Shown here: positions 19,906-35,825 of the stretch, piece after piece | Numbering within the stretch: position 1 is the first letter of the stretch | Layout of the letters: every line of letters begins with the position of its first letter | Source: Streptomyces hundungensis | Lineage (GTDB): Bacteria > Actinomycetota > Actinomycetes > Streptomycetales > Streptomycetaceae | Assembly: GCF_003627815.1 (NCBI RefSeq) | Contig: NZ_CP032698.1 | Coordinates: forward strand, 8,060,001-8,124,000 | Direction of reading: 5' to 3' | Length of the DNA stretch: 64,000 nt | Program-made: the position numbers and the translations under genes | The notes under the pieces: generated by a model | What the model was told of the DNA's origin: nothing | Database searches by the model: none | The model's input: the letters and a program-made list of their open reading frames with translations, nothing else

Positions 19906-20690
19906 GCGGTGATGAAGCCGTGGGGGTTCGTCGAGCCGTATCTGCCGGTTGGTGAGTAGGGCCCGTATCCCGAGTGGCTGCGGCAGCAGTTCGAGGGTGT
20001 GGTCTGGAAGTTCCGGTCGGGAGCGCAGTGGCGGGAGATGCCAGGCCGGTTCGGCGCCTGGTCCACCGTGCACAACCGGTTCAGGCAGTGGCGGGACGCC
20101 GGAGTCTTCGAGGCGCTGCTGGAAGGGGCGATAGCCGAGGCTGCCGGGCGGGGCGGGGTAGATATGTCACTGGTCAGCGTGGACTCCACGACGGTCCGCG
20201 CCCATCACGATGCGGCCGGAATGCGCCTGGAGGCGACCGTTTGGGATGCTCTGGAGAAGGCCGCCGTCGAGGCGGAGGGAGCCCGGCAAAAGGGGGCGGC
20301 GCGGCGGAACAAGACGGACACGGCGACGTCGCCGCTCCAGGCCGGGCCGAACGGCTGCGCGTCCGGCGGCGGCGCAAGCTCCGCTTGAAAGCCGCCCTGC
20401 TCGGGCGCTCACGTGGCGGACAGACCAGCAAGATCCACGTCGCTGCCGACCGCCTGTGCCGACCACTGGCCCTGATCCTGACCGCCCGGCAGGCCGCGGA
20501 CAGCCCGCAGTTCATTCCCGTGCTCACAAAGATACGGGTCCGCGGGCCCGTCGGCCGTCCCCGCACCCGGCCCGGCGCAGCCGCCGGGGACAAGGCCTAC
20601 TCGTCCCGCGGCAACCGCGCCTACCTGCGCAGACGCCGTATCAAGGCAGTCATCCCGTAGGGCAGTCGGCTGGGACCCATGTGGCGGTGG
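19905..20690 (+). mobile_element. Degenerate IS5-family insertion sequence
   Basis: Transposase pieces in order: VEPYLPVGE, a TAG stop at about 19957, GPYPEWLRQQFEGVVWKFRS, EMPGRFGAWSTVHNRFRQW, VSVDSTTVRAHHDAAGM (first catalytic Asp) up to about 20380. A frameshift leads to GGQTSKIHVAADRLCRPLAL and GDKAYSSRGNRAYLRRRRIKAVIP, ending at a stop at 20660. The C-terminal catalytic Glu region is absent. One stop, one frameshift and a truncation make it inactive. Confidence 0.8.
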
Positions 20691-21757: not shown

Positions 21758-22057
21758 GCGTCCCCCTATGTCCAGGCACATCATGCACCTGGCCACATCG
21801 GTGTGATCAAGGGGGGGAGGCAAAGCGCTCACGCCACCGCCAGCTCCGACTCCGCTCCCAGGCCGCATGCTCCTGGAAGCACTCAAATCCTCCTGCGAGC
21901 CCTCCTTGTCCTCGCCAACGCCGAAGTCCAGAGGTGACCGATGATCTCCACGCAACGATCACACTCCTGACCGGTGCGAGCCCGTAACTACCGGCCCACA
22001 CCAGCCCTGTGTACTGCGGAATCAGGATGGAACGATCTCATTGGGATCGGCCGAAGT

Positions 22058-22920
22058 TCAGTGGGACGAGTCTTGGCTGCTGCGTTCCTTCTTGAGCCGG
22101 CTGGAGCGCCTGCCGTGGCAGAGGGCTGAGCAGGTGAGGCGTATCTGCTTGTTGCGTCCCGGTTCCAGAGGTCCGGAGCATTCAGTGCAGGTTGTCGGCT
22201 GTTGCCGGGGAGGAATGGACCCGGCTGCTCGGCGGCGGAGGTAGGCGGTGTGGCAGCAGCGATCGGAACACCATCGTCGTCTGCCGGCTTTGAGCGGAGC
22301 GTTGCAGATGCCGCAGGCCAGGTTCGGTGGGTTCGGGGAGCGGTTGGCCTCAGCCTTGTCGCGTCGGCTCCGGCGCTGGGCGTCTTGGCGGCAGGAGACC
22401 GAGCACCAGCGGCGCGTAGTGACGACGGGCAGCTGCTCGCCGCAGCCCTGGCAGGCCGCGTACCTCTTCTTCTTCGGCGGTTTTGGGTTCCGCTTTCTGT
22501 ATGTCGCCTGTCGGCATGCCTGAGAGCAGGTCTGCCGGGGGCTGCCGCCGTAGGGCTGGACATGCCGGTCCCGCATTCGATGCACTGGCCGCCCAGAAGG
22601 ATCTCCTTGAGGGAGGAGGGGTCTCGGTCGACCACCGCGGCCAGCCGTTCCCAGCTGAGTGAACCGCTCCATGACCAGGGCGGATCAACTAGGTAGCGGC
22701 GCAAATACGGCGCTTTGATGTGGTTGGCGGCGGCGAGGCGTTCGATGAAGGACGTGGGTCCTTCGCCGGCGACCGGTCGGATCCTTCGGGGGAGCGGGGC
22801 CCGAAGCTGAACATCGACTTCACGCGCTGTCGGCGCAACGTGCCTAGTGCGCTCTTCGTACGCCGCGCGTACGGGATTTGCACGCTTGGCGGGGTAAGGT
22901 GCCGACGGGAGGTGTTCCAT
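22058..22920 (-). pseudogene. TniQ-like zinc-binding protein broken by frameshifts
   Basis: The 5' part, read in one frame (about 22790-22560), gives LPRRIRPVAGEGPTSFIERL and LRRYLVDPP, the start of a TniQ-type protein. The 3' part (22672 to 22058, another frame) carries three zinc-ribbon units: CQGCGE with CSVSC, CGICNA with CSDRC, and CTECSG with CSALC. The switch lies near 22555. A second frame change near 22798 would join the better start MFSFGP. TniQ proteins help target transposition; family members elsewhere serve other DNA roles. It is divergent from tap, and an ATG in its frame at 22918-22920 overlaps the tap start. Confidence 0.65.
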
Positions 22921-25183
22921 GTCTGAGTTGTTCGAAGCGGTCGACGCGCTGCTCGCATCCCGGGCCACGCTGCCGCCGCCGGCGGAGCGCAAGCGCCTGC
23001 GTGCCGCTCACGGCCTGACCATCGACGAAGTGGCCACTGCGCTGAAGGTGCGGCGGGCCACGGTGTCTGGCTGGGAGGCCGGCAAGACGGAACCCCGCCC
23101 GCCGGAGCGTGATGCGTACGCCCGGCTCCTGAACAAACTCGCTGAGCTCTACCCGGCCCCGGCCGCCCCGGTCGCTGCGGTTGCGCCCACGCCCGTCGCG
23201 GCGATCCAACTGGTGGAAGCGCCCGCTCCGCAGCCAAGGGTGGAAGCGCCGACACCGCCGCCAAAGCCGGTCACCGAGGCCGATGTCGTGGCGGCAACCG
23301 AGAACGCCCAGCCCCCCGTCGCTGCTGCCCCCGCCTCCGTTACGGCGGCTTCGGCCGCCGTGCCCCGTCCGGCGAGCGCCAACAGACCGTCGCCGTCCCG
23401 CCATCCTGGCGCGAAGCAGACAGCGCCGGCCAAAGCTTCGATGGACGGGACTGACCCGCGGTTTGCGAACGGTCCGCTGGCGGTCATCGACGGGGACGCC
23501 GATGGACAGGTGCTGGCGTACTGCGTCGGCGGCCTGGTCCTGGACGTGCCTGCGAAGTCCCTCCCGGCTCTGGTGGAGTGGGTGTTGGCCGAGGGGAGGC
23601 TGGGGCAGCCGAAGTTGTCCGGTCCGGGCAAGGACGCCGATCCCCTGCTCGTGCTCACCGAGGCCGCGTTGGAGCGTTACGGACTCCCGGCCGCCCTTAC
23701 GGAGCAGGAGCGGCTCGCGGGGCGCTTGCCGGAGGGGCACAAGGTCGTCAAGCAGCTCGCGCGTGCGCAGTGGAAACTGACGAAGCGCGGGTTCGGGCCT
23801 TGGGCGCGCATCTACCGCCCGGCGACTGGTTCGGAGCGGGCCTGTGTGCAGTTGTGCGTTCCGTCGTGGGGTGCGCTGGATTCCCGGCACTGGGGTGAGG
23901 CCGGGCAGCTCCCGCCGGCCGAACTCGCCCGCGTCCTGGGCGTGTACGCGTCCCGCGTGATGACGCCGCGCGGCTCGACGGCTGTGACGGGCCTGGAGCT
24001 GATGACCGCGCTGCACCCGGCGACCCGTGCCTCCGCCCCGGACGCCGACGGTAAGCGGCACTCCGAGCACAACCCCGGTTCCCTGGGCGTGGACCCGGTC
24101 GACCCGGCGCCGTGTGAGGCCCCCGACGGCCACCCCGTCCTCAAGCACCTGCCGCGCTTCCATGTGCGCGGTCCGGCGGAGAAGCTGTTCGAGGAGGCGT
24201 ACGACTGGGCGCGCCCGATGACCGACGCCGAGTGCACCTTGCGCCACCTGGTCGGTATCGACGTCAACATGGCCTTCGCGGCCGGCGCCAACGGGCTGAC
24301 CGTCGGGCTGGGTGCCCCGACGCACGTCACGAACCCGGGCTTCGATCCCAAGCTTCCCGGCTCGTGGCTGGTCGACCTGTCCCACGTGGACCTGTCGCGT
24401 GTGAAGGTCGGCAAGGAGTGGGTGGAGCTGGACGGCAGTCTGTTGCCGAGCCCGTTCACGCCGAAGGGCGACCGCCCCGAAGGCCCGGCCTGGTATGCGA
24501 CACCGACCGTCGCGTACGCGGTGGAGCTGGGCTACGAGGTGCAGCCGCTGGAGGCGTGGGTGCGGCGGGAGAACGGCCGCTACCTGGACGGCTGGTACAA
24601 CCGGCTGCGCGACGCCTACCTCGCCACCATGACCGACCTCGGCGTCGGCGCCGACCTCGCCCCGGCCGACTTCCTCACAGCCATGGACAATTACAAGGCC
24701 CGCGACCCAAAATTGGCGATCGTCGTCTCCGCGGTCAAGGCGACGGTGAAGGGCGGCCTGGGCAAGCTCCGCGAGCGCCCGCGCGGCGAGGGCTGGCGGC
24801 CCGGCGAGCCATGGCGCGCCCTGTCCCGCCCCACGTGGCGGCCGGACATCCGCGCCGCCGTCATCTCCCGTACCCGCACCAACTTGCACCGCAAGATGGT
24901 GAAGCACGCCGCGTTCACCGGGCAGTACCCCATCGCGGTCCTGTCCGACTGCGTCGTCTACGCCGCCAACGGCCCCTCTCCGCTGGACTTCCTGCCCTAC
25001 CGCGAAGGCAAGCCGCTGCCCGGCGGGTTCAAGCTCGGCATCAACCCCGGCCTGGTCAAGCACGAAGGCACCCAGTCCGTCCTGTGGGGCGAGGAAGTCC
25101 GCGAGCGGTTCAACGCCCCCGAACTCAACCTCGCCCGCTACATCAAGGACGGCACCGTCACCGACACCGACAACGGCGAATAG
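22919..25183 (+). CDS. tap: Telomere-associated protein Tap
   Basis: The protein has 754 residues, close to the known size of Streptomyces Tap. The N-terminus (SELFEAVDALLASRATLPPP, then KRLRAAHGLTIDEVATALKV with RRATVSGWEAGKTEPRPPE) is the characteristic XRE-type helix-turn-helix. A Pro/Ala-rich linker (about 80-170) precedes the large conserved domain. Known Tap binds the 3' overhang at the ends of linear Streptomyces replicons and recruits Tpg so the ends can be filled in. GGGAGG lies seven bases before ATG 22919. tpg follows after 15 bases, forming the usual operon. Its presence means the host replicon is, or recently was, linear. Confidence 0.93.
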   Translation: MSELFEAVDALLASRATLPPPAERKRLRAAHGLTIDEVATALKVRRATVSGWEAGKTEPRPPERDAYARLLNKLAELYPAPAAPVAAVAPTPVAAIQLVEAPAPQPRVEAPTPPPKPVTEADVVAATENAQPPVAAAPASVTAASAAVPRPASANRPSPSRHPGAKQTAPAKASMDGTDPRFANGPLAVIDGDADGQVLAYCVGGLVLDVPAKSLPALVEWVLAEGRLGQPKLSGPGKDADPLLVLTEAALERYGLPAALTEQERLAGRLPEGHKVVKQLARAQWKLTKRGFGPWARIYRPATGSERACVQLCVPSWGALDSRHWGEAGQLPPAELARVLGVYASRVMTPRGSTAVTGLELMTALHPATRASAPDADGKRHSEHNPGSLGVDPVDPAPCEAPDGHPVLKHLPRFHVRGPAEKLFEEAYDWARPMTDAECTLRHLVGIDVNMAFAAGANGLTVGLGAPTHVTNPGFDPKLPGSWLVDLSHVDLSRVKVGKEWVELDGSLLPSPFTPKGDRPEGPAWYATPTVAYAVELGYEVQPLEAWVRRENGRYLDGWYNRLRDAYLATMTDLGVGADLAPADFLTAMDNYKARDPKLAIVVSAVKATVKGGLGKLRERPRGEGWRPGEPWRALSRPTWRPDIRAAVISRTRTNLHRKMVKHAAFTGQYPIAVLSDCVVYAANGPSPLDFLPYREGKPLPGGFKLGINPGLVKHEGTQSVLWGEEVRERFNAPELNLARYIKDGTVTDTDNGE

Positions 25184-25198
25184 GGGAGCAGGCAGCCA

Positions 25199-25756
25199 AT
25201 GAGCATGTTCGGGGACGGCCTGGACGCCGCCGTGCAGAAGACCTTCACCCGCCCGGCACCCAAAACCGCAGGCCCTCAAATGCGGTACTTGGTAAAGCAG
25301 TTGGGCAGCACCAGAGCGGTCGCCCAGATGCTGCGGATCTCCCAGCGCACCGTCGAGCGATACGTGAAGAACCAGATCAAAAAGCCTCGCCCGGACCTCG
25401 CCGGGCGCCTTGAGCGCGAGGTGAAGAGGCGCTGGCAGCCCCAGATCCGGGCCAAGGCCAGGGCGAACGCGGCTTCCACCGGAGGCATCGTCATCGACGC
25501 CCGCGCCCGCATGGGCTACACCGCGCCGATCGGCTCGACGGACCAGGACCGCATCCGGCACCTGACCGTCGCCCTGCCCCCGGTCTACGCCGCCCGCCTC
25601 TTCGACGCCCAGGAGCAGGGCGCCGGCGACACCCGCCTCCAGGAGATCGCCGCGGAGGCGCTCAAGGAGGTCTACTTCCAGGACGGCGGCCGCCGCGCCG
25701 GCAGCCTGGAGGAGATCCGGTTCACCGACATCGAGCACCTCGAGTTCGAGTTGTAG
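25199..25756 (+). CDS. tpg: Telomere terminal protein Tpg
   Basis: The protein has 185 residues, the normal Tpg length. It shows the conserved start (FGDGLDAAVQKTFTRPAPK), a helix-turn-helix near residues 38-62 (TRAVAQMLRISQRTVERYVK) and the segment ARARMGYTAPIGSTDQDRIR. Tpg becomes covalently joined to the 5' ends of linear Streptomyces DNA and primes end patching. The acceptor reported for the S. coelicolor protein is Thr114, and residue 114 here is the Thr of IGST, so the acceptor is preserved. GGGGAG precedes ATG 25199, and the gene is 15 bases after tap. Confidence 0.95.
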   Translation: MSMFGDGLDAAVQKTFTRPAPKTAGPQMRYLVKQLGSTRAVAQMLRISQRTVERYVKNQIKKPRPDLAGRLEREVKRRWQPQIRAKARANAASTGGIVIDARARMGYTAPIGSTDQDRIRHLTVALPPVYAARLFDAQEQGAGDTRLQEIAAEALKEVYFQDGGRRAGSLEEIRFTDIEHLEFEL

Positions 25757-27867: not shown

Positions 27868-28932
27868 TCATCCCTCTCGAATCGCAGGGCGAGAAGCGGC
27901 GGTTGGTGCAACTGGTGCTGAAGGATGGAGCGGGAGGGCGCATGGAGTACCGGTCGGGGGTATGACCTGTCTTCGGAAGTCTGTGGGAGGTATGCCGTAG
28001 GCGTTCTTGAATGCGCGGCTGAAGGCCGCAGCATGGCTGAAGCCTCGACGTGCTGCAATGGCGTGCACGGGGACGTCCTGGCGCAGGGGGTCGGACAGGT
28101 CCTGCCGTGCTCGGGTGAGTCGCTGCTCAAGTAGGAAGCCTGCAACGGTCATGCCCTTCCCTTCCTGCTGGAACAGTCGGTGGAGGTAGCTGACGGATAT
28201 GTGATGCGCGGCCGCGATGGCTGCGACGTCCAGTTCGCTACTGTCCGAGTTGTTGTGGATGAAGGACTTGATGCGGAGCAGCGAGGTTCTGCGATGGGTC
28301 TCGGGCGGCAAAGACCGGTCTGCGTCGAGCACGCCGGCGAAAAGTGACGCCACAAGATCAGCCAGAACCGTACTGAGCCGTGCCCCGTCGCCCTCTTGAT
28401 AAGTGCTGCTTTCTTCTGTTACCTGCGTAAGGAACGTGGCCAGCAGGGATCCGATTCCGGTTCGGGCTGAAATGCGTCTGCCGATGACCTTTGCTGCCGC
28501 GCGAGGGGGCATGGGGAGGGCAGCCTTGGGGATCTCAACGCCGATGATCTCAAACGGATCCGGGCCACTGCTCAGTTCGAACGATCGCGAGGTGTCACTG
28601 GTGTGGTAGTCGAACGCGCCGTGGACCAACGTTTCCTTTCCCAAGCGGAGCATTCCCGTACCGCGCTTGACGAGGGAGATGTGAAAGGCCTCTGGGTCGG
28701 ACTTGCTGATCAGCTTGGGAGTGCGACGGAAAGTGAGAGGGAAGCATTCAAGCGGATAGACTGTCACGTCGCCAAGGGCGATGTTTCGCTGATTGACCCA
28801 GAATTCTGCTTCGTGCTCGCTTCGCAAATCCATGGGCGCATGGGTTTCAGTCATGATGTCCCGCCACGTTCCGAAGCGATCGGCGGGCTCGAGTGCGGAA
28901 CTCCGGAAAATGGTCTCAGGCAGCATGATCAC
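27868..28932 (-). CDS. AraC-family transcriptional regulator
   Basis: The protein is about 353 residues long from GTG 28932 or ATG 28926 (MLPETIFRSS). The N-terminal AraC-binding-like domain (residues 1-190: FRSSALEPADRFGTWRDIM, CFPLTFRRTPKLISKSDPE) is joined to a C-terminal double helix-turn-helix (LDVAAIAAAHHISVSYLHRL, VHAIAARRGFSHAAAFSRAF, NAYGIPPTDFRR). It belongs to the group with an AraC_binding_2 sensor domain, common in actinobacteria. The target genes are unknown; the divergent small secreted protein at 29435 is the nearest candidate. A Pro-rich tail of 30 residues follows the HTH. Confidence 0.92.
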   Translation of the reverse strand: MIMLPETIFRSSALEPADRFGTWRDIMTETHAPMDLRSEHEAEFWVNQRNIALGDVTVYPLECFPLTFRRTPKLISKSDPEAFHISLVKRGTGMLRLGKETLVHGAFDYHTSDTSRSFELSSGPDPFEIIGVEIPKAALPMPPRAAAKVIGRRISARTGIGSLLATFLTQVTEESSTYQEGDGARLSTVLADLVASLFAGVLDADRSLPPETHRRTSLLRIKSFIHNNSDSSELDVAAIAAAHHISVSYLHRLFQQEGKGMTVAGFLLEQRLTRARQDLSDPLRQDVPVHAIAARRGFSHAAAFSRAFKNAYGIPPTDFRRQVIPPTGTPCALPLHPSAPVAPTAASRPAIREG

Positions 28933-29434
28933 GGGTCTACATCGGTGGCAGTGGGCGACGCAAGGTGATTTAGCGACATGGTGGACGCTGTTCAGGCTGG
29001 CCTCAAGTGGGGTGAGAGGTCGGACGGTTGGTCGTGAGGTGGCTACCTCCGTCGTCACCTTGGTTCTCCATCAACAGGTGAGCCCCGGAACGCTGTTGCT
29101 CTCGCAACGAGCCACCATCTTCGACGTCCCGCGGTGGGCGTCGAGCACGTCCCTGGGTGCCCCAGGTGCCCAGGTGCTGGCGCGAGTCTTCAGGCGCGGT
29201 CCCAACCACCCCGGATCAGCGGATCATTGCTGCCCTCCATACCCGCCGGACTGGACGCAGGCCGGGGGAGCAGACGGCGTGCTGTCGACTGTCGGTTAAG
29301 GAGTTGTGCACTCCTGGCCAACGCCCCACTTGCCGGAGCTTGCAACGATGGCGACGGCCCGGGAGGCCGGCGGCATCGGCATACGACATCACGACCATCA
29401 GCTATGGCGTGAGTCGCTGACCAGGGGAGTTTCC

Positions 29435-33431: not shown

Positions 33432-34230
33432 ATGCCCCCGTCGACTTCGCCCGCAGCCCTTGATCGACATCAATTGCAGGAAGAATTGCGCCAGTTGGGG
33501 GTGCGAGCGGGGTCCGTGCTCATCGTCCACGCCTCGCTGTCCGCGTTCGGGACCGTGGAGGGCGGGGCCGACACCGTTGTGGGTGCGCTGCTCGACTGCC
33601 TCACTCCGTCGGGCACGCTGGCCGTGCCCACGTTCACCCCCGAGGTCAGCGACCCCTATCCCCAGGTGGAGCGGCCCACCACTGACAAGGTGATGGCCGC
33701 CCGCGACGAGGTCCCGCTCTTCCATGACGCGCTGCCCTCCTCCATGGGAGCCGTGCCGGCGGCCGTCCTCGCCCACCCCGACCGACTCCGCGGCAGCCAT
33801 CCCAGGCCTCTGTCGCCGCCATCGGTCCCTCGGCCCACCGCATCACCCACCAACAGCCCCTGGCCTACGCACTCGGACCCGGGTCACCCTTCGACGCCCT
33901 TCACGAGCTGGACGCCGACATCCTGCTGCTCGGCGTCGGCCACAACCGCAATTCCTTCCTCCACCACGCCGAGACCCACGTGCCCCACCACCGTCGCAAG
34001 CTGCGCCGCTTCCCCTACCTCGTCGACGGGCAGCGCGTATGGGTCGAGGCCCGCGATGTCGGCGATGACAACGGCACGCACTTTCCGCGCGTGGGCGCGG
34101 AGTGCGCCGCCACCGGGCAGGTGCGCAGCCGCACCATCGGCCTGGCCGAGTGTCGGCTCATGAACAGCCGGGCGCTCGTCCCTCCCCGAGGGCAGCCGGC
34201 CGCACCGCCGCGAGCTCCTCCTAGGGGTCC
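33432..34230 (+). pseudogene. AAC(3)-family aminoglycoside N-acetyltransferase, frameshifted
   Basis: The first 120 codons give SVLIVHASLSAFGTVEGGAD, GTLAVPTFTPEVSDP and SSMGAVPAAVLAHPD, typical of the antibiotic acetyltransferases that use acetyl-CoA to modify the 3-amino group of aminoglycosides. Near 33800 the frame is lost in a short C run (catcccagg). One step over it continues correctly: ASVAAIGPSAHRITHQQPLA, LDADILLLGVGHNRNSFLHH and RFPYLVDGQRVW to about 34170. The C-terminus is also unusual (Pro/Arg-rich), suggesting a second lesion. Without correction the enzyme is not made whole. Confidence 0.8.
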
Positions 34231-34340
34231 TGGCGCCTGGCTCCGTACCCGCGCCCAGCGTGGGGGAGGGGGTAACCCCGCCGTCGCATACGGGGGTTGG
34301 CGCCATGGTCCCCGGGCCGGGCGGCGGCGAGTCTTGGATC

Positions 34341-35825
34341 ATGAAACCGCACAGGCCGGCTCTGGCCGCACTGGTCCTCTCCCTCGGCGCGCTGATCGCC
34401 GCCGCGCCCCCATCCACTAGCGGGCCCTCCACCTCTTCCATACCCTCCAGCTTTTCCGGGCCCGCCACCCCGGCCGGGCCCGCCACCCCGGCCGGGCCCG
34501 CCACCCCGGCCGGGCCCGCCACCCCGGCCGCGCCCGGCGCCTCGGCCGCGAGGTCACCCGTGCCTGCCCTGGACCGCGCAGCCCACCCCCTGCGGACCAC
34601 CGACCCCCGGGGTGACCTGGACGACCTGCGCTCGATCGGCATGATGGTGAACGACGCCACGGTGGTGGGGCTGGGCGAGGCGACCCACAGCTCGCACGAG
34701 TTCTTCACCATGAAGCAGCGGGTCTTCCGTTATCTCGTGGAGAACAAGGGTTTCCGCGTCTTCGCGCTCGAGGCGAGCTGGAGCACCGGCCAGCGGCTCA
34801 ACGACTACGTGCTGCACGGGGTGGGCGACCCGGCACAGATCATGCGTACCGAGTTCCAGAGCACCTACGTGTTCTGGAACAACACCGAGTATCTGGATCT
34901 GCTGCGATGGATGCGCGGATACAACGTGCAACACCCCCACGATCCCGTGCAGTTCATGGGTGACGACTTCGCGTACGCCGGCCCCGAGCTCTACGACAAG
35001 GTGGCCGGCTATATGGCCAAGACACACCCCGAGCTGCTGCCGCGCCTCACCGAGCTGTACCGGGACCTGCGGCCCACGACCACCCCTGAAGCCCACATGA
35101 ACACCTATCCGCTCCGTCCACTTGCCGAACTCCAGGAGATCGCCGGCCGCACGGGGCGGGCACTCGACCTGCTCAAGCAGGCGGGGCCCGGCAAGGGAGG
35201 CGACGTCGAGGCGCACGCCTGGGCGGTACGGAACGTCACCGCCATCGACCAGACGGCCAAGGGATACGCCTTCGACCCCGACGATCCTGGGGAGGCGGCG
35301 CGGGCCATGCGCTACCGGGACCAGATCATGGCGGACAACGTGGAATGGTGGCAGCGGCACACCGGAAGCAAGGTGCTTCTCGCGGCCCACAACGGGCATG
35401 TGGCCCTCCAGTCCCACGACCCCCAGCACTATCCCAAGGTGCAGGGGAGCTTCCTGCGCGACAAGTTGGGCAAGCATTACGTGAGCATCGGCTCCACCTT
35501 CGACGGCGGCTCGTTCAACGCGCTCGACGCCGACGGACGAATGGCGGTCCACACCGTCGGCCCCGCCAAGCCCGGCAGCAACGAGTACACCCTGGACAAG
35601 GCGCGCCCGCGCGACTACGTCCTGGACCTGCGGACCGCTCCGAACGCGGCCCGCGACTGGCTCAACACCCCCCGCGCCACCTGGAGCATCGGCGGCGCCT
35701 ACCCGGGGCCGACGGGACCGTACAAGCAGATCGCGCTCGCGAACAGCCATGACGTCCTCATCCATCTGCACCGCGTCAGCCCGGCGCACTGGCTGACCGC
35801 CCCGACGGCGCCCGCCGGGAAGTGA
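34341..35825 (+). CDS. Secreted erythromycin-esterase-family protein
   Basis: The protein has 494 residues from ATG 34341. A signal peptide (PALAALVLSLGALIAAAPP) is followed by a repetitive Pro/Ala/Gly linker (residues 27-70). The esterase-like domain then starts: VVGLGEATHSSHEFFTMKQR, VFALEASWSTGQRLNDYVLH, RWMRGYNVQHPHDPVQFMGDD, and VLLAAHNGHVALQSHDPQHY, with the Glu and His residues used by Ere enzymes. Ere proteins open the macrolide lactone; related secreted proteins have other unknown substrates. The gene overlaps the 3' debris of the AAC(3) gene and is on the same strand. Confidence 0.88.
   Translation: MKPHRPALAALVLSLGALIAAAPPSTSGPSTSSIPSSFSGPATPAGPATPAGPATPAGPATPAAPGASAARSPVPALDRAAHPLRTTDPRGDLDDLRSIGMMVNDATVVGLGEATHSSHEFFTMKQRVFRYLVENKGFRVFALEASWSTGQRLNDYVLHGVGDPAQIMRTEFQSTYVFWNNTEYLDLLRWMRGYNVQHPHDPVQFMGDDFAYAGPELYDKVAGYMAKTHPELLPRLTELYRDLRPTTTPEAHMNTYPLRPLAELQEIAGRTGRALDLLKQAGPGKGGDVEAHAWAVRNVTAIDQTAKGYAFDPDDPGEAARAMRYRDQIMADNVEWWQRHTGSKVLLAAHNGHVALQSHDPQHYPKVQGSFLRDKLGKHYVSIGSTFDGGSFNALDADGRMAVHTVGPAKPGSNEYTLDKARPRDYVLDLRTAPNAARDWLNTPRATWSIGGAYPGPTGPYKQIALANSHDVLIHLHRVSPAHWLTAPTAPAGK
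34458..34529. repeat. 18-bp tandem repeat, four copies, inside the esterase gene
   Basis: The unit gggcccgccaccccggcc occurs four times without interruption (34458, 34476, 34494, 34512) and encodes four GPATPA hexapeptides in the linker after the signal peptide. Copy number changes keep the reading frame. Confidence 0.95.

Follow-up and report, generated by a model that had tools for sequence, protein, structure and literature searches.

Tap of Streptomyces as a putative phi29-type DNA polymerase fused to a probably autoregulatory DNA-binding domain: the tap-tpg locus of Streptomyces hundungensis

The tap-tpg pair described here, located in a 64,000-base stretch of Streptomyces hundungensis DNA (the window; bases 8,060,001-8,124,000 of a single-contig, 8,393,044-bp assembly), has its closest described counterparts in Streptomyces lividans and Streptomyces coelicolor, where the two genes encode the telomere-associated protein Tap and the terminal protein Tpg. 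According to excerpts of PMC4513846, Tap and Tpg synthesise DNA on S. lividans telomere substrates in vitro without any other polymerase; in the absence of DinB1 they gave labelled Tpg and 13-nt products, which DinB1 did not lengthen. The same excerpts state that end patching needs DinB1 or DinB2 (either one), that Streptomyces genomes have no B-family polymerase gene, that Tap resembles no known protein outside its helix-turn-helix (HTH), and that in the tac-tpc system of the linear plasmid SCP1, which has non-archetypal telomeres, a telomere-associated protein likewise deoxynucleotidylates its own terminal protein. In S. lividans Tpg the first nucleotide is accepted by T114 and the negative charge of D115 is required (PMC3572947, in the portion consulted). 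The S. hundungensis pair shares with the S. lividans and S. coelicolor pairs the gene order, gene sizes, family models (NF047542 and NF047541), the T114 and D115 residues of Tpg and a subterminal position, and no difference was found in the genes themselves. The pair is real and, as a pair, ordinary; its interest lies in the apparent nature of Tap and in its control. We consider it rather probable that the patching of Streptomyces telomeres falls to a hidden protein-primed polymerase of the phi29 type, with Tap being a B-family (PolB) enzyme fused to an autoregulatory HTH and Tpg its terminal protein. To the joint proposal that the locus is the end-patching operon of this chromosome itself and its sole copy, that Tap is such a polymerase under the control of its own HTH, and that the chromosome is linear with telomeres missing from the assembly, we assign a probability of roughly 0.72. 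As far as the literature searched goes, what is added to published accounts is the reading of Tap as a polymerase and the operator specific to Tap.

Both genes are intact, with the lengths and coordinates that an earlier sequence-only reading of this DNA had given them. The two genes share a strand, tap coming first and tpg following after a gap of 15 bases. Tap scores 1118.4 bits against the NCBIfam equivalog model telomere_Tap (NF047542, cut-off 600) over the complete profile (1-695 of 695), and Tpg scores 284.6 bits against the equivalog model telomere_Tpg (NF047541, cut-off 90). Residue 114 of Tpg is the threonine that had been claimed, within ...APIGSTDQDRIR..., and residue 115 is Asp, so that Tpg combines an equivalog match with Thr (or Ser) at 114 and an acidic residue at 115, as the excerpted text of PMC3572947 requires. 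No other copy of either gene was found in the assembly: the second match to Tap is a 25.4-bit stretch (residues 15-179) and the next match to Tpg has an E value of 0.35. Consequently, the possibility raised earlier that better-matched additional pairs make this one redundant falls away. The G+C content at third codon positions (GC3) is 0.89 in tap and 0.93 in tpg. Tpg has a match (E<=0.001) in 228 of 295 genomes of the genus, its own included, and 397 plasmid records match the DNA of the tap-tpg locus; the pair itself is therefore ordinary. The span originally assigned to the locus, 22919..25756, covers both genes and stops short of the operator described below; a polymerase had not been considered. 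An antisense open reading frame (ORF) of 964 residues (22844-25738, minus strand) spans nearly the whole operon and was rejected as a gene, since it most likely just reflects the GC-rich codons.

The body of Tap is predicted by structural modelling to adopt a PolB fold, with the phi29 type nearest. Residues D448, F453, K607, K611, G615, D677 and Y681 do not vary in any of the 93 rows compared. They include what we take, from phi29 motifs and their spacing, to be the motif A aspartate and the motif B lysine with its later glycine (D448, F453, K607, G615). In the model, D448 lies in a strand (443-449) that is followed by a helix (452-457). We propose that residues 180-754 constitute a divergent protein-primed B-family DNA polymerase, whose metals would be bound by D448 of motif A and D677 of motif C and whose motif B lysine, K607, would face the nucleotide. 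If the body is such an enzyme, it follows that Tap itself would join the first nucleotides to T114 of Tpg on the 3' overhang.

A number of observations weigh against this assignment. Motif C of B-family polymerases usually carries two aspartates, and Tap offers one, D677, invariant in all 93 rows and located between strands 673-675 and 678-683; residue 675 is Leu in 79 of the 93. Motifs A, B and C were assigned by phi29 motifs and spacing rather than by a residue-level structural alignment. Structural similarity is low, with TM-scores of 0.29-0.31 on the query and root-mean-square deviations of 10.4-11.6 Å for nine Foldseek hits (6.1 Å for VIA). A search of Tap against Pfam at E<=1 gave HTH families only and no polymerase, and the Tap profile matched PDB sequences in its N-terminal part only (27 matches, E<=10). 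In a Rhodococcus relative, the BLAST alignment has a gap at the motif B stretch, where the Lys-Gly spacing was matched by eye. Compared with a phi29-type protein-primed polymerase, Tap shows about 9% identity, has the single motif C aspartate, and carries in addition the N-terminal HTH and a low-confidence linker (84-174); moreover, Tap and Tpg make about 13 nt only, patching an end rather than copying a whole replicon (PMC4513846, excerpts). No title or abstract opening listed from the literature searched, which missed most subscription papers, named Tap as a B-family polymerase. As far as their consulted portions go, one polymerase survey (PMC12926913) uses 'telomere' once, in a reference title, and 'terminal protein' nowhere, and another (PMC7544198) contains neither term; the word Tap was not part of either search. 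If Tap does contain a PolB fold, this would solve the puzzle of DNA synthesis by Tap and Tpg in the absence of a B-family polymerase, at least as the puzzle is posed in the excerpts of PMC4513846. It would also name residues to mutate and connect protein-primed phages and mobile elements with the linear chromosomes of actinobacteria. On this reading such chromosomes would run on a domesticated polymerase-primer pair of phage or plasmid origin.

The second component of the proposal concerns the DNA upstream of tap, in which four units phased at 11 bp score 4, 6, 6 and 4 of 6, that is, two perfect and two degenerate copies of CGTACG. We surveyed 83 sequences upstream of tap (the window, 80 loci of named genomes and two plasmids); a further 19 loci (L007-L025) had partial tap genes and gave no upstream sequence. 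Pairs of CGTACG at 11, 22 and 33 bp occurred 170, 119 and 63 times, against means of 2.15, 1.35 and 0.8 over 20 draws of random stretches from the same loci. At least two strict in-phase units were present in 80 of the 83 upstreams, the exceptions being L036, L093 and L097. Arrays of three units with up to 2 mismatches numbered 116 in 61 loci, every one of them within 130 bp upstream of tap; none was found elsewhere in 1.68 Mb around the tap genes, nor did a reversed-motif control give any. The last unit ends about 10 nt before a TAGGGT-like -10 and covers the -35 region. In the S. hundungensis genome itself, three-unit matches with up to 3 mismatches numbered 19, against 2 in the control. Here two points count against a dedicated operator: the best three-unit array of the genome is not the one at tap but falls within an ORF that was judged AsnC-like by eye, and another array with 2 mismatches looks intergenic. 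No description of a tap operator appeared in the titles and abstract openings listed from the literature searched, which has the same gap in subscription papers. As a separate observation, the beginning of the SAP1 telomere (L106:1-40) contains TGCGCGAT, a sequence that it shares, perhaps by chance, with the operator core of class B (L159, upstream of tap).

The simplest reading of these patterns is that the HTH of Tap binds its own promoter. In the proposed scheme, the N-terminal XRE-type HTH would bind the phased repeats over the -35 and adjust expression of tap-tpg, with HTH and operator changing together between lineages. Because the array occupies the -35 region, such control would most likely be repression rather than activation. 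The HTH fold is common to Tap and XRE-type autoregulators (phage C2 repressor and the HipB and HigA antitoxins), which are among the PDB profile matches of the Tap N-terminus. Unlike these autoregulators, Tap has its HTH fused to a polymerase-like body, and its operator consists of direct 11-bp units and not of a dyad.

Divergent plasmid Taps (n=17) show the operator core shifting with the recognition helix. Class B proteins have the helix RREAVGN with the core GCGCGAT (L156 and L159-L161; L157 is near), L158 and L162 have RRETVTS with GTGCGTT, and L163-L165, L167, L169 and L170 have a TQTVKN-type helix with GGTTAAA-like cores. We then scored genomic loci by classes drawn from this plasmid set. 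The sample consisted of 111 regions defined by Tpg place (the 71 least similar and the 40 most similar listed, leaving out the middle of the list and the unlisted rest). A tap start was present in 100 of them and 85 were used, after removal of 11 regions without tap or its start, 13 with a truncated gene or without the helix, and 2 duplicates. The 85 loci comprised 78 of helix classes A-D, which formed the permutation set, 4 of class X without an array, and 3 others (two short HTH proteins and one truncated). Operator class matched helix class in 66 of the 78, against a permutation mean of 41.9 and a maximum of 52 in 20,000, a count to be read as not blind since the helix and operator expressions were written after seeing the test listing, though they were left unchanged after the count. 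The correct class was recovered in 55 of 57 genomic loci of class A, 4 of 9 of class B, 4 of 7 of class C and 3 of 5 of class D. Lag analysis gave peaks at 11, 22 and 33 in class A and weaker peaks at 35, 12, 23 and 11 in B, at 23, 12 and 11 in C, and at 13 and 12 in D.

Over 97 Taps, operator distance correlated with the distance of the helix (r = 0.727), of residues 1-24 (0.692), of the rest of the HTH (0.675) and of the body (0.504). In partial Mantel analysis, the helix given the body retained 0.626 (permutation p 0.001) and the body given the helix 0.193; the partial correlation was 0.453 for the helix against 0.347 for residues 1-24. Four proteins have the window's Tap as best whole-protein match and yet carry a D or B helix (L192, L205, L215 and L271); the operator follows the helix in L205 and L271 and is below threshold in L192 and L215. 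L097, which lacks an array, has a different recognition helix in its Tap.

Not all loci conform to covariation of helix and operator. L036 has a class A helix and no array, and L093 a class A helix with one strict unit, so array loss is not always tied to a new helix. Outside class A the operator was often below threshold, which accounts for most class misses, and one row (L225) fell into the wrong class. Among the 17 plasmid Taps, 4 stand outside all four classes (L155, L166, L168 and L171). Residues 1-24, as the coefficients above indicate, come close to the helix as predictors of the operator. Finally, because HTH and operator are less than 300 bp apart, their joint movement by one recombination event, with no functional link, is conceivable. 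In six HTH-only plasmid relatives of the Tap N-terminus (L149-L154) the helix is a different one and the CGTACG array is absent; they were set aside as neither support nor counterexample. L252, L257 and L273 (also L237) have an RVPSI-type helix, no array and upstream DNA that looks coding by eye; RVPSI-type Taps seem to be read through from the upstream gene. Neither pSGRIFU2 (class B Tap) nor a Streptomyces uncialis plasmid (class D) has a record start that resembles the archetypal telomere, though these starts are perhaps not true ends. If autocontrol holds, a loop between Tap and its operator would set expression and could gauge the amount of free Tap against the telomere number. To our knowledge, the covariation of HTH and operator is the first handle on the control of the end-patching operon, and it would explain why the recognition helix varies more between lineages than the body of Tap. 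Both autocontrol and the polymerase reading are inferred from sequence and models.

The genome setting bears on the question of linearity. The dnaA gene sits centrally, at 51.8% of the contig, a placement shared with linear streptomycete chromosomes, and tap-tpg lies 308 kb from the right contig end. Among the 111 regions fetched, 37 Tpg places are on contigs longer than 5 Mb, at a median of 214 kb from a contig end (24 within 310 kb, 9 between 310 kb and 1 Mb, and 4 deeper), and the distance of our pair falls inside their range. In three genomes (G118, G137 and G007) Tpg lies mid-contig, 3.6-5 Mb from the ends; their assemblies are possibly rearranged or differently opened. No terminal inverted repeat was found between the contig ends (20 kb against 20 kb), and these ends showed no likeness to the archetypal telomeres of SAP1 and pSV2. 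A circular contig found no favour either: no ORF with a positive coding score spans the artificial joint of the contig ends, the 4 ORFs over it all scoring negative. The matching telomere palindromes that the sequence-only reading had suggested searching for did not appear at the contig ends; the 13-base palindrome I pattern has exactly two occurrences, each of them internal, and at one mismatch it is no commoner than the control (71/69 against 117/147). A 200-base SAP1 telomere query gave 41 matches in the assembly, the best (E 0.005) internal, and one of 20 bases, some 300 bases short of the right end (E 0.22), was treated as chance. The assembly ends thus neither prove linearity nor favour a circle. 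According to excerpts of PMC8743542, recognisable telomeres are missing from many sequences that are listed as complete, and every strain in that study with archetypal telomeres, one excepted, encodes Tap and Tpg. Given the bare ends and this report, we read the telomeres, probably archetypal, as missing from the assembly. That the telomere of this chromosome was not found in the assembly is a point against our reading of the locus. The earlier suggestion of a linear replicon is supported by the intact sole pair and the central dnaA and gains nothing from the contig ends, which leaves linearity likely yet unproven. Two weak DnaA-family matches of equal score and direct orientation lie near opposite contig ends (G000:C1 110015-110311 and 8340061-8340357) and perhaps represent an IS21-type ATPase gene in two copies.

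Alternative explanations exist for each part of this scheme. Tap could be polymerase-like and catalytically dead, folding the overhang and holding Tpg while DinB1 or DinB2 does the synthesis. The lone aspartate of motif C would suit a dead enzyme. So would the need for DinB1 or DinB2 in end patching, as the excerpts of PMC4513846 give it; in the same excerpts, however, Tap and Tpg minus DinB1 labelled Tpg and made 13-nt products, none of which DinB1 extended. Furthermore, D448, K607 and D677 are invariant throughout and would not be needed in a dead fold, and we regard the idea as doubtful. In the case of the operator, the repeats might be bound by another host factor, with HTH and operator covarying by adjacency and shared recombination. 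OmpR/PhoB-type response regulators, for example, also use 11-bp direct repeats just upstream of the -10, which is the geometry of the tap array. The short distance between HTH and operator and the strong correlation of residues 1-24 are compatible with such a factor, which would be expected to have other targets; the array occurs nowhere else in the 1.68 Mb searched. The helix outdoes residues 1-24 in partial correlation, in L205 and L271, whose proteins are otherwise closest to the window's Tap, the operator agrees with the D or B helix, and L097, L192 and L215, with a D helix, are without a CGTACG array. Binding by a host factor therefore appears unlikely to us, and autocontrol by Tap is preferred.

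Doubts of another kind concern the origin and use of the pair. It may have been captured as a linear-plasmid cassette by a chromosome with a different telomere system at its ends, a scenario in keeping with the many plasmid records that match it, with the absence of the chromosome's own telomeres from the assembly, and with the departure of telomere classes from strain phylogeny (PMC8743542, in the part consulted). The pair is nevertheless the only one in the assembly, its distance from the contig end is within the range of Tpg places, and no plasmid backbone was present among the listed plasmid matches of its flanks, which makes capture improbable. That the pair is a relic out of use is very improbable indeed: the surroundings are accessory and in part poorly coding, as a relic would have it, while both ORFs are intact across nearly whole family models and T114, D115, the high GC3 values and the operator have all been kept. 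We consequently retain the view that the locus is the end-patching operon of this chromosome. Its features, together with two neighbouring elements, are collected in Table 1.

Table 1. Features of the tap-tpg locus and adjoining sequence (positions in the window)
Feature	Position	Strand	Basis or remarks
740-base repeat with truncated DDE transposase	19920-20660	+	many Streptomyces plasmids at 71-91%, mostly unannotated, among matches listed
TniQ-like fragment, upstream of tap, reading away from tap, seemingly broken midway	21988-22992	-	Pfam 27.0 bits, exactly at cut-off
Putative operator, four 11-bp-phased units: AGTGCG 22846, CGTACG 22857, CGTACG 22868, TGCACG 22879	22846..22884	+	in-phase scores
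Candidate -10 TAAGGT, 10 nt past last unit (inferred)	22895..22900	+	sequence; TAGGGT-like consensus at that offset in aligned relatives
Ribosome-binding site GGGAGG of tap	22907..22912	+	sequence; GGAGG in consensus upstream of tap among relatives
tap, telomere-associated protein Tap, 754 aa	22919..25183	+	NCBIfam NF047542
Tap HTH domain, residues 25-72, recognition helix ~46-53 in KVRRATVSGWE	22991..23134	+	Pfam HTH_3 34.8 bits; model helices 35-42, 46-53
Body of Tap, residues 180-754, with predicted B-family DNA polymerase fold of the phi29 type	23456..25180	+	
tpg, encoding the terminal protein Tpg of 185 aa, with priming residue T114 and D115	25199..25756	+	NCBIfam NF047541

The neighbourhood looks like an accessory arm region rather than a recognisable integrated plasmid. 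We compared 40 ORFs of the window with Pfam, some of which overlap or sit on opposite strands. Between 16 and 38 kb, two of these are related to transposition, namely the TniQ-like fragment and the truncated DDE transposase (25.4 bits, covering positions 34-105 of a 200-position profile); with so few remnants, the description of the region as rich in insertion sequences is not supported. The view that the neighbours are small, foreign-looking or broken is borne out in part by these remnants and by the little coding signal in parts of 16-22 kb and 28-34 kb (according to an in-house gene caller that also missed the AraC gene at 27868-29058), and is contradicted by ORFs with near-complete Pfam coverage (DUF4265, NUDIX, ASCH, DUF4241, an AraC regulator and an erythromycin-esterase-like protein). 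The recent integration of a linear plasmid, also suggested before, finds no backing in the plasmid comparisons: with a 24-kb stretch as query, the best 25 of 198 matching records all match over tap-tpg only, and the flanks (the 740-base repeat and the DUF4241 and AraC genes) match different plasmids piecemeal among the 25 matches listed for each. The TniQ-like ORF was tried as a conserved partner of tap and rejected; it has matches at 64 of 99 loci, but the 25 listed cover just its first 28-61 residues and correspond to the tap promoter and start read backwards. A defence-system search of five ORFs gave weak HTH-type matches and nothing else. At 33432-35825 on the plus strand, a partial aminoglycoside 3-N-acetyltransferase-like ORF (profile 1-96 of 232) sits beside the erythromycin-esterase-like gene.

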